Assembly: GCA_014801985.1 (NCBI GenBank)
Contig: JAAVDD010000035.1
Coordinates: 12,689-49,402, forward strand
Length of the DNA stretch: 36,714 nucleotides
From: Bacteroides sp.
GTDB lineage: Bacteria > Bacteroidota > Bacteroidia > Bacteroidales > Muribaculaceae
Reading direction: 5' to 3'
Both the position numbers and the translations under genes were made by a program. The notes beneath the pieces are model-generated. The model was given only the letters and a program-made list of their open reading frames with translations. It did no database searches and had not been told where the DNA came from. Shown in pieces: positions 8,048 to 36,714 of the stretch. Within the stretch, counting starts at the first letter, position 1, and every line of letters begins with the position of its first letter.

Positions 8048-8183
8048 AATAAATTAAGATTTTAATAATTAGTAATTCTTCGTGTATGTGCGACTCTTTC
8101 ATCGCGTTCGGTATTAAAACAATAGTAATAAAAAGAATGTTAGATAGAGGCATAGAACTTTAAACATTAATTAACAATAGCCT

Positions 8184-8396
8184 CGATATATGATTCACCA
8201 AGTAGATGAAAGAATCTTGAACGCTAAAAATCGTTCTTTTTGACTCGTCATTATTCTTTTTAAAGGAAACTCGTCGATTTTCAATTGGCATCTGTTGTCT
8301 TATCATTAAGTCGCATACGAAAGTATGCTCCTTCTGCGGCAAAAGCACAAAAAATAACTTCGTTTTATCTGTTCATTAATTTTTAGTAGCTACTTA
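8184..8396 (-). repeat. MITE-like structured repeat, copy 1 (one end lost)
   Basis: Read on the minus strand from 8396, this is the same element as at 33145 and 35944. It begins TAAGTAGCTACTAAAAATTAA, has the central hairpin (GCATAC/GTATGC at 8313-8328, outer arms 8338-8345 and about 8292-8300), and has the highly conserved right half. The second terminal repeat has been replaced after TCATATATCG (8184). The outer stem pairs less well here (6 of 8) than in the other copies and the promoter-like box has one extra T, so this copy looks decayed. It fills most of the gap between frc and the permease gene. A 62-codon open frame runs through it but is not intact elsewhere. Confidence 0.82.
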
Positions 8397-33144: not shown

Positions 33145-33385
33145 TAAGTAGCTGCTAAGAATTAATGAACAGCTAAAACGAAGTTATTTTTGTGTAGCTT
33201 TTGCCGCAGAATGAAGGAGCATACTTTCGTATGCGGCTGAATGATAAGGCAAAAGATACCAATTGAAAATCGACGAGTTTCCTTTAAAAAGAATAATGAC
33301 GAGTCAAAAAGAACGAGTTTTAGCGTTCAAGATTCTTTCATTTAGTTGGTGAATCATATATCGATTAATTTTTAGTAGCTACTTA
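33145..33385 (+). repeat. MITE-like structured repeat, copy 2 (complete)
   Basis: The left end TAAGTAGCTGCTAAGAATTA and right end TAATTTTTAGTAGCTACTTA are inverted repeats with two differences. A TATTTTTG box (33185-33192) precedes a hairpin with outer arms CTTTTGCC (33198-33205) and GGCAAAAG (33248-33255) and inner arms GCATAC/GTATGC (33219-33234, loop TTTC). The right half (about 33258-33340) matches the other copies almost perfectly. TA dinucleotides flank both ends, as expected for a TA target duplication, though they may also belong to the palindrome. Confidence 0.85.
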
Positions 33386-33431
33386 TATGTGAGGCTCTTT
33401 TCATCATTAAGTTTTGGCTATGTTGGAAAGT

Positions 33432-33483
33432 TTTGATAAATTTGGGAAAAGTTTTCATTAAAACTTTTCCCAAATTTATCAAA
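33432..33483. repeat. 24-bp perfect inverted repeat
   Basis: Two 24-bp arms (33432-33455 and 33460-33483) separated by CATT. The core of each arm is TTTGGGAAAAGTTTT and its complement. It sits just before the collapsed ATPase remnant. It may be the terminator of a lost gene or a recombination or protein-binding site; no T-run follows. Confidence 0.75.
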
Positions 33484-33493
33484 TGTTTTCAGT

Positions 33494-33670
33494 ATGGAAG
33501 AAACTTCTGGAATAATCGAAAGACCTCTATATATGCAGAGGATTCTCCTTTTGTAGGGAAAAATATAATAAAGATACTGACAGGGCAAAGGCGGGTAGGA
33601 AAAAGGGTCGTGAAATAGATTTCGTAGCTGAGAAGGATGGGGAAAGTCTTTATGTGCAAGTGGCTTTGAC
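33494..33670 (+). pseudogene. Collapsed DUF4143/AAA_14-type ATPase remnant
   Basis: From ATG 33494 one frame reads MEETSGIIERPLYMQRI and stops at TAG 33554. A second frame reads 'PFVGKNIIKILTGQRRVGK' (33550-33606), the P-loop start of this ATPase family. A third frame continues 'KGREIDFVAEKDGESLYVQV' (about 33601-33663), which is the C-terminal nuclease-like end. About 300 residues between them are gone, joined inside an A/G-rich run. So both ends of one gene survive with two frame changes. The end abuts the 3' end of the EamA gene on the opposite strand. Confidence 0.75.
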
Positions 33671-35822: not shown

Positions 35823-35852
35823 ATCGAAGATTTACGGAAAAACTTATTCAGT

Positions 35853-35877
35853 CCCTGTGGGTTTGCAACCCACAGGG
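35853..35877. repeat. REP-like palindrome A
   Basis: CCCTGTGGGTT and AACCCACAGGG pair perfectly around TGC. The flanking sequence 35844-35871 recurs inverted at 36385-36412 with three differences. It could also act as the terminator of the gene ending at 35822, but no T-run follows. Confidence 0.72.
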
Positions 35878-35943
35878 CAGTAGGGGCCACACTGAAAGAA
35901 AGATCTCAGCCCACCCTTGGGTTGCATCAAATAAAAATCAACA

Positions 35944-36191
35944 TTAATAAGTAGCTACTAAGAATTAATGAACAGATAAAACGCAGTTAATTTTGAGCAT
36001 ATTAGTTCGCGGAGTGAAGGAGTAGAGCGGGCTATGCGACTGAACGACAAGGGCTAAGATGCCAATTGAAAATCGACGAGTTTCCTTTAAAAAGAATAAT
36101 GACGAGTCAAAAGTAACAAGTTTTAGCGTTCAAGATCTTTCAACTGCTTTGTAAAAAATATATCGATTAATTCTTAGTAGCTACTTATTAA
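35944..36191 (+). repeat. MITE-like structured repeat, copy 3 (complete, perfect ends)
   Basis: The two ends (35944-35969 and 36166-36191) are perfect 26-bp inverted repeats containing AAGTAGCTACTAAG. A TAATTTTG box (35988-35995) precedes a hairpin whose outer arms are TTAGTTC (36002-36008) and GGGCTAA (36051-36057) and inner arms GTAGAG (36022-36027) and CTATGC (36032-36037). The central sequence differs strongly from copy 2 yet keeps the same pairing. The right half (36060-36140) is nearly identical to the other copies. Confidence 0.87.
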
Positions 36192-36297: not shown

Positions 36298-36384
36298 TGA
36301 CTGCGAGGGAGTTCGTCCGGACAGACCGCCACGGTGAGGCCTGTCTCAATCTCGAGAGTGGTAACGCCAGTTCTAATAACTTGC

Positions 36385-36412
36385 GGGTTACAAACCCACA
36401 GGGACTGAGTAA
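36385..36412. repeat. REP-like repeat C, inverted relative to A
   Basis: A 28-bp match (25 of 28) to the complement of 35844-35871. Its right edge is exactly where the SanA-like reading frame stops resembling its family. Confidence 0.7.
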
Positions 36413-36560
36413 GACCCACCTTCCGATGTGGAATGCTATCCACATCATCATAGGTCTTTCCGGAAACATTCTTACTGACAAAAATATCACACACTGATAT
36501 GAGAGTAGTGATTGCTGCTATAATTGCAATACTCCAAATGATAATTTTACGCTTTTTCAT
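36411..36560 (-). pseudogene. SanA/YdcF-like (DUF218) gene truncated at a repeat
   Basis: The frame starts MKKRKIIIWSIAIIAAITTL, a signal anchor, and continues 'NVSGKTYDDVDSIPHRKVGL'. That is the N-terminus of SanA-like envelope proteins, where the text normally goes on with 'VLGTS' and the DUF218 domain. After 'KVGL' it runs into the palindromic repeat ('TQSLWVCNPQ') and ends 52 codons later at 36252 with no family resemblance. About 50 of an expected 200 or more residues remain. Its start overlaps the end of the ADP-ribosylglycohydrolase gene by 14 nt, so it was coupled to it. Confidence 0.7.
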
Positions 36561-36714
36561 CGATTATTTGATTGATAAAGGATGTTATCTTCTGATGATA
36601 CATGGCTCGGTTATTCAGATTTTCAATATAATATCCAGGAATAGAGGAATAACCAAACTTTGCACCGAGAATAGCGCACGCAATCGCTCCATTTGTATCA
36701 GCATCGCCACCTTC
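36547..36714 (-). CDS. ADP-ribosylglycohydrolase family protein, C-terminus only
   Basis: The last 55 codons of a gene entering from the right edge. 'GGDADTNGAIACAILGAKFG' is the C-terminal metal-binding signature of ADP-ribosylglycohydrolases (two aspartates and threonine binding the dinuclear magnesium centre), followed by 'YSSIPGYYIENLNNRAMYHQ' and a short helix. The enzyme removes ADP-ribose from proteins or small molecules. The metal site visible here looks intact. The rest of the gene lies outside the window. Confidence 0.85.
   Translation of the reverse strand, partial: EGGDADTNGAIACAILGAKFGYSSIPGYYIENLNNRAMYHQKITSFINQIIDEKA

Follow-up and report, generated by a model that had tools for sequence, protein, structure and literature searches.

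A hairpin conserved in shape more than in sequence is shared by MITEs and IS5-family transposon ends in related gut bacteria

The window, by which we mean the whole stretch of 36,714 nucleotides analysed here, holds three related, non-coding elements that lie between genes. The original prediction had placed three copies of one repeat in it, and all three are found at these places with slightly adjusted boundaries. Copy 3 spans 35950-36185 on the + strand and has TA at 35948-9 and 36186-7 (35948..36187 with the TA), copy 2 spans 33147-33383 on the + strand between TA at 33145-6 and 33384-5 (33145..33385 with the TA), and copy 1 lies at about 8183-8394 on the - strand (8183..8396 as annotated), where its right terminal repeat is missing and its centre is about 6 nt shorter, so that its BLASTN alignment to copy 3 spans query positions 5-223 only. 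The ends of copy 3 form a 26-nt perfect inverted repeat, and the end motif AAGTAGCTACT, searched for in the window with at most one mismatch, gave 9 matches on the two strands, at 5 sites, versus 0.25 expected from shuffles. Short, non-coding, multi-copy, bounded by terminal inverted repeats and carrying no transposase, the window copies have the properties of MITEs. Other repeats lie close by: right after copy 2, at 33409-33506, there is a 47-nt inverted repeat with a 4-nt gap, perhaps a bidirectional terminator; copy 3 is flanked by diverged inverted copies of a GTGGGTTTGCAACCCACAGGG-type repeat at 35843-35883 and 36373-36413; and positions 36542-36700 have a 97% repeat on contig C1.

Each copy contains a core hairpin. 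A covariance model, R1, whose underlying alignment left out the core of copy 3, matched that core at 35986..36072 on the + strand with 65.1 bits (E 7.9e-16), the core of copy 2 at 33183..33269 on the + strand with 67.3 bits (E 1.8e-16) and the core of copy 1 at 8278..8357 on the - strand with 34.5 bits (E 9.4e-7). The hairpin tip, with its tandem G.A motif GAAGGA / GACTGA, occupies 36016..36043 (+) in copy 3 and 33213..33240 (+) in copy 2. The outer arms are as first described, and so is the double change proposed for the inner arms, the sixth inner pair being C-G in copies 1 and 2 and G-C in copy 3. The inner arm GTAGAG of copy 3 differs from the GCATAG of its own subfamily by two further changes, of which one leaves a wobble and the other a G.A mismatch, and copy 3 is therefore a partly decayed member.

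A 44-nt module, ATTGAAAATCGACGAG..GACGAGTC, is inserted in the 3' arm of copy 3 (36065..36108, +), and it also lies at 33262..33305 (+) in copy 2, as read from the sequence, and at 8242-8285 in window coordinates in copy 1. The conserved right half of the elements had been taken for the 3' part of the RNA, which is too simple: 44 nt of it are a separate module, missing in the otherwise similar copies L003, L007, L008, L009 and L016. With a length of 42-47 nt, the module sits within hairpin arms at different spots and in both orientations, and it was found at 19 places once near-duplicates had been removed, 13 of them at most 200 nt from a tip. It also occurs in L163 and L104, and L042:1003-1101 has two tandem copies without a hairpin; it may be a micro-element nested in MITEs.

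The elements are not confined to their own genome. In the own assembly (G000, 2.52 Mb, 55 contigs) at least 58 BLASTN matches to copy 3 were obtained with 40 of 69 candidates scored, and about ten of the 58 are merely an inverted end read on the opposite strand. The elements there are modular, with full copies of about 240-248 bp, copies of about 200 bp that lack the 44-nt module and internal-deletion remnants of about 110 bp, and fetched partial matches revealed further families of elements that share this centre but end differently (TAAGTAGCTGTTCAAATTAAAC, TAAGTAAGTTTGAGAAATTAG). The hairpin tip, written as GAAGGAGCAT(N8)ATGCGACTGA with at most three mismatches, gave 38 pattern matches in the own genome versus 2 with the reversed control. 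DNA matches to copy 3 were found in 14 of 41 genomes (the own genome and 40 relatives), all of the same genus, and the tip reaches further: an exact GAAGGAGCAT-N8-ATGCGACTGA scan of GTDB species genomes returned at least 111 stretches and, among the 80 listed with titles, nearly all were from Muribaculaceae and other Bacteroidales, including Prevotella conceptionensis, Hoylesella loescheii and Prevotellamassilia timonensis. The covariance model matched in at least 6 of 149 genomes sampled across the order, a lower bound because at most 29 candidates per genome were scored. Copy 3 had no match in phages; the tip was found in two viral contigs, apparently one locus. Four listed copies of Bacteroidales-type elements (L102, L103, L113, L134) come from a MAG labelled Paenibacillus (JAMPHR), which reflects transfer or, with greater likelihood, a MAG that is mixed or wrongly labelled, and one tip-bearing MAG labelled Gammaproteobacteria may be mislabelled.

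On the two arms of the hairpin, GAAGGA and GACTGA face each other, and from these letters the tip can be read as a non-canonical structure composed of a stem, tandem G.A pairs, two Watson-Crick pairs, again tandem G.A pairs, and a stem. A distant genome (G043, L297) has a different tip sequence and keeps the two G.A doublets, which are read there as three pairs apart, and in many cores a bulged A follows about 20 pairs further out. We aligned 37 cores out of 43 representatives that were non-redundant at 80%. Five were dropped for a 44-nt insertion in an arm or for poor arms (L100:3968, L163, L129:3843, L135, L067) and L106, from a record labelled Gammaproteobacteria, was dropped at alignment, so that the alignment leans to well-paired cores. 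In the 37 ungapped non-redundant cores, the 37-pair helix has 77.6% standard pairs, in a structure taken from a single member (L053); this choice favours the unslid register where percentage paired is compared and does not cause the two-sided changes. Such changes occur at 34 of the 37 base pairs, and the covariation score was 0.486 versus a mean of 0.144 in shuffles and at most 0.165 in slid structures. Whole tips have changed on both sides, as in GGAGAATA..TATTCGACTGA and GGAGCTTAG..CTAAGCGACTGA. Moreover, within 12 close clusters of four or more sequences, some of them from insertion sequence ends, single changes at consensus pairs gave G.U 29 times versus A.C 14 times (p 0.03), and in 20 cells both sides had changed to a new Watson-Crick pair. 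Compensatory changes, expected for a covarying hairpin, were thus found in many cores beyond those of the window. We conclude that the central fold is conserved far beyond chance, that the hairpin is kept by compensatory change, and that its shape is conserved more than its sequence in these related gut bacteria.

The core hairpin recurs as an end module in a group of IS5-family transposons, a point on which the original interpretation needs correction. Our searches for this family used PF01609 (25 genomes), a transposase piece (149), NF033580 (26) and the L256 transposase (81), and they yielded 11 distinct elements bounded by terminal inverted repeats (TIRs), with a transposase or remnant matching L256 and with terminal repeats of at least 28 nt except in L354. 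In 10 of the 11, each end has an inward hairpin, the left one on the + strand and the right one on the - strand, 31-41 nt from the element ends: L256, L344, L347 (= L230, L259), L351, L352, L353, L354 (= L267), L355, L356 (= L266) and L363. The eleventh, L362 (L362:1339-1847), is a two-ended IS5 remnant whose terminal repeats are perfect (score 32); it has the right hairpin only, the left one missing directly behind an intact perfect repeat. Transposase loci without TIR bounds in the fetched DNA had one hairpin (L345 (= L226), L359, L372) or two (L280). The two hairpins of one element follow the same plan with different sequences.

L256 (1261 bp) and L344 (1283 bp) are IS5-family elements by their DDE transposase, perfect terminal repeats and short target duplication: both have 34-bp perfect terminal repeats and an open transposase frame of 263 codons, with 3-bp target duplications of TTA/TTA in L256 and TGA/TGA in L344. 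The L256 transposase scored 141.6 bits against the IS5 model NF033580, whose cut-off is 110, and the L344 protein is 79% identical to it. In the rest of the hairpin group the transposase gene is shortened or interrupted; L355 is flanked by TTA/TTA, and the flanks of L351, L352, L353 and L363 are not identical. The L256 element had no match in plasmids. No hairpin was found inside nine IS5 elements with other repeats (L227, L234, L240, L248, L251, L254, L270, L348 and L360 (= L221), the last masked in the middle and not at its ends), and the hairpin matches at L254 (= L349) and L255 fall outside the insertion sequence.

MITE classes that are sisters to that of the window copies do match IS5 elements in their termini, and the hairpin is borne by MITEs whose terminal repeats are of several different types. 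L150 is a MITE formed by a 161-bp near-palindrome with the L256-type terminal repeat. The ends of MITEs with GAGAGTGTTTGGATTTAAA and GAAGTCGTTTAAAC repeats resemble hairpin-free IS5 elements, and the ends of hairpin-free L270 and L348 resemble those of hairpin-bearing MITEs, namely L201 and the GAGAGTGTTTGG class, respectively. Counting each element on both strands, identical 3-bp TNA flanks accompany the GAGAGTGTTTGGATTTAAA MITEs in 19 of 23 strand-wise rows, identical flanks accompany the GAAGTCGTTTAAAC MITEs in 8 of 10, and the TA class, whose elements are mostly 170-240 bp, has TA on both sides in 116 of 128. Empty sites were sought in relatives and none was recovered, the intergenic DNA there being too diverged. 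A transposase with the same ends as the window copies, which the original prediction suggested looking for, did not turn up in the loci and relatives scanned: inverted-repeat scans of the fetched loci and DDE_Tnp_1 and IS5 searches gave none with the AGTAGCTACT ends, and end-only AGTAGCTACT places in relatives were mostly truncated or short deletion copies. Our tentative reading is that the window copies are non-autonomous MITEs, palindromic over their whole length, with IS5-type ends and with an inner part of ~90-120 nt homologous to the end hairpin of the IS5 group. Two open, hairpin-free IS5-family insertion sequences of ~960 bp with ends GAAGTTGTTTAAAC also lie in the own genome (L227 and L234, on G000 C13 and C21) and are a possible partner of the L042-type MITE.

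A palindrome that exists as double-stranded DNA is expected to give about equal numbers within each pair of complementary mismatches. We aligned the arms of 60 representatives with a score neutral to mismatch type, dropping 5 for low score, and counted mismatches only where they were flanked by Watson-Crick pairs. In the inner arms, at most 45 nt from the tip, such isolated mismatches were G.A 102 versus C.T 7, G.T 57 versus A.C 13, and G.G 15 versus C.C 0, whereas the outer arms, on the terminal-repeat side, gave G.A 37 and C.T 39, G.T 39 and A.C 29, and G.G 15 and C.C 10. Binomial probabilities for G.A and then G.T were 1e-22 and 1e-7 in the inner arms and 0.9 and 0.27 in the outer arms, taking as independent counts that span related sequences and are not independent events. 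The asymmetry of the inner part versus the symmetry of the outer part therefore indicates that the inner hairpin has been selected as one folded strand, and the selected strand is the + strand of copies 2 and 3.

These counts bear directly on the possibility that we are dealing with plain palindromic MITEs, whose fold would simply follow from their inverted repeats and common ancestry. The outer arms, with their symmetric mismatches, fit this explanation, as do the near-identical bursts in which subfamily copies occur and the G/T and A/C numbers (87 versus 76) of a less selective early count over all arm positions (43 cores, simple alignment), in which A/G reached 240 versus 19 for C/T. A fixed C.A opposition in some classes may be the reason why this looser count misses the wobble asymmetry. 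A passive palindrome should not give G.A over C.T at 102:7 and G.T over A.C at 57:13 in the inner arm only, however, nor are tips with both sides changed expected from it, and we regard this explanation as very unlikely. On this point the original prediction, of a mobile element with a structurally conserved, covarying hairpin rather than a plain MITE, is borne out by the two-sided changes and the mismatch asymmetry.

Folding energies agree with strand specificity in part. As RNA, the copy 3 core gave a z-score of -2.2 on the + strand, with 3 of 200 shuffles as good, and of 0.1 on the - strand; with DNA parameters the values were -1.0 and -0.1, so that neither strand stands out. Copy 2 as RNA has a good fold on both strands (+ strand -26.2 kcal/mol, z -3.8; - strand -22.6 kcal/mol, z -4.7). 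The two L256 hairpins as RNA reach -42.9 and -38.9 kcal/mol on the structured strand versus -25.3 and -25.5 kcal/mol on the other strand, and DNA parameters gave the same strand order for copy 2 and for the single L256 hairpin tried.

A strand-specific, covarying fold is also what a small-RNA gene of the element's own would display, a structured RNA being made from an internal promoter, and TAnnTTTG boxes are indeed present in the window at 33185-33192 (copy 2) and 35988-35995 (copy 3), as the original prediction had noted in support of such a gene. The boxes do not form a conserved feature: among 37 diverse cores, TAnnTTTG occurs at this stem position in 8 and anywhere in the 5' 30 nt in 9, and it lies inside the stem, at positions that are paired and covary by compensated changes. 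Furthermore, RNA genes would be a difficult reading of the inward pairs found in insertion sequences, and Rfam 15 gave no match on the window elements at gathering scores or over the hairpins in 10 loci at E up to 5, on which ground we also rejected membership of a known Rfam family. The promoter assigned to the element is accordingly not supported, and a small-RNA gene is quite unlikely.

The tip itself could be taken for the start of a short coding element, in which AAGGAG would bind the ribosome and ATGCGACTGA would supply the start codon for a small peptide (MRL...), and the SD-like AAGGAG does stand 11 nt before the ATG in all 114 tip matches, a regularity that follows from the construction of the search pattern. 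Paired changes abolish the ATG in L086, L092 and L112, a stop follows it directly (ATGTGA) in L118, L129:3843 and L256, and the frames behind the ATG, read by eye, are short and differ from each other. With the ATG lost through paired changes in some copies and followed by a stop codon in others, we rejected this reading, which is scarcely credible.

All 98 placed elements lie outside called ORFs of 90 aa or more, which would suit a hairpin that serves the host in cis as an mRNA 3'-end or stability element like REP/BIME. Yet no preferred orientation is seen: among 92 placed elements (6 more were without a flank) both neighbours lie on the structured strand in 25 cases and on the other strand in 33, while 21 have divergent and 13 convergent neighbours; local GC skew is positive for 39 of the 92. 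Element orientation is random with respect to neighbouring genes and GC skew, which counts against a regulatory role in the host and also against a bias to the lagging strand, and is as expected if selection acts on the element rather than on host transcripts. We rejected the host regulatory element because orientation ignores the neighbouring genes, and consider it highly improbable.

The hairpin fold itself probably does a job for the element. Its persistence where there is no transposase gene and where the ends differ suggests that the element itself benefits, and therefore favours a role in mobilisation. At each end, the strand that enters the element 5' to 3' would fold once it is single-stranded, and the folded strand would be recognised by its shape during mobilisation, through the two tandem G.A motifs, fixed A.G mismatches and the bulged A. 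The transposase of an IS5 element would act in trans on the MITEs. Single-hairpin MITEs could be born from an insertion sequence end that folds back and is copied, or by internal deletion, and the resulting palindrome would then decay symmetrically in its outer part; the symmetric decay of the outer arms and the continuation of the palindromic stem into the terminal repeats fit such fold-back copying. Against a role in mobilisation stand the loss of one hairpin in L362, the absence of a transposase for the AGTAGCTACT ends of the window copies from our searches of fetched loci and relatives, a G.U tolerance that suits RNA at least as well as DNA, and the IS5 elements that do without the hairpin, whose transposases therefore cannot need it. 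As a whole, the explanation by IS5-derived MITEs, an end fold recognised in mobilisation, a transposase acting in trans and a fold-back birth is the one we prefer, although we hold it with less than even confidence.

Its main rival is an RNA shield: in transcripts that come from genes on either flank of the insertion sequence, the hairpins would fold and damp read-through expression of the transposase, the MITEs merely inheriting the hairpin. Protection of this kind is known from other insertion sequences. At both ends an incoming transcript would bear the structured strand, so that the inward orientation is explained equally well, and the G.T excess over A.C in the inner arms and the very stable RNA folds at the L256 ends also suit this rival. 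However, MITEs without a transposase gene keep the hairpin by compensatory change, the 3' end, at which a transcript coming in would be antisense, has the hairpin as well, and there are IS5 elements without it. In addition, neither L256 hairpin is directly followed by a run of five or more U, and they are therefore not ordinary terminators. A shield is possible, if on the unlikely side.

The kind of element, IS5-type insertion sequences and their MITEs, is known. The elements described here are like the IS5 family (NCBIfam NF033580, Pfam PF13340/PF01609) in their transposases, those of L256 and L227 belonging to NF033580 / PF13340, in the 3-bp TNA-type duplications of several, in their size of ~0.9-1.3 kb and in having MITEs that share their terminal repeats. 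For P. gingivalis, MITEs are described that have TIRs in common with ISPg elements of the IS5 family (PMC4596501). New, as far as could be checked, is the conserved and strand-specific hairpin at both ends: the open-access literature, queried by tip sequence and subject terms with subscription papers outside the search, held no description of such a hairpin. To our knowledge, a hairpin that is conserved in shape and specific to one strand has not been described inside each end of any IS5 element.

Other hairpin systems resemble it in part. Integron attC sites and IS200/IS605 ends are single-strand hairpins recognised by shape, with variable stems, fixed unpaired bases and one active strand. 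By its sequence, the hairpin described here would share the variable stems, the fixed unpaired bases and one strand favoured as the fold; unlike them, it sits at the ends of a DDE-type transposon, and a search for Y1 enzymes gave no link to it. IS10, IS50 or IS200 have 5' hairpins that protect from read-through transcription, and these are likewise hairpins or inverted structures near insertion sequence ends that fold in incoming RNA, whereas the present hairpin stands at both ends, has conserved tandem G.A motifs and persists in transposase-less MITEs. Pneumococcal BOX elements are small repeats of modular build, in which a stable stem-loop is combined with modules that may be absent; compared by plan and not by sequence, they recall the elements described here with their 44-nt module, but belong to a different phylum and have different ends. 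REP sequences, mobilised by RAYT Y1 transposases, are short hairpins with a GGAG/GTAG-like 5' foot and many intergenic copies, also as inverted pairs. The present elements share all these traits and differ in their long terminal inverted repeats and TA or TNA flanks. The sole Y1_Tnp match in the own genome is weak (23 bits), a 333-aa RAYT-like gene at L076 (G000 C12:26534-26779) that has a palindrome of its own, GGATAGTAATCGTGATGCGC..AGTAAGCATAATCC, in inverted copies on its two sides; this palindrome is unlike the hairpin described here, and a REP/RAYT system was therefore rejected.

Ordinary MITEs are conserved at their ends, whereas here the ends differ and compensatory mutation, biased to one strand, keeps the central fold across several Bacteroidales families. 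Such a pattern points towards a step that depends on structure, which this family of DDE transposons is not known to have. More generally, a DDE-type, IS5-family lineage of Bacteroidales might depend in its mobilisation on ends that fold as a single strand, of ssDNA or RNA, and are read by shape via tandem sheared G.A pairs, and fold-back copying of such an end might generate palindromic MITEs in which the hairpin, and not the terminal repeat, is the element's conserved identity; we judge this broader proposal unlikely in its full form. The two elements whose transposase is open, the copies of the hairpin, of which there are well over a hundred, and, for control, the sister elements that lack it make a ready test set, and the covariance signature offers annotators a means to label an abundant, so far unlabelled repeat in some gut Bacteroidales genomes.

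Two minor observations concern single loci. Inverted pairs of hairpins about 160-240 nt apart occur at L118:6253-6550, at L123:4066-4354 and in the own genome at C20:58381-58645, looking like internal-deletion derivatives of two-hairpin insertion sequences. In a Muribaculaceae isolate, a SAM-II riboswitch (L108:1123-1181, - strand, 65.6 bits) lies near a MITE.
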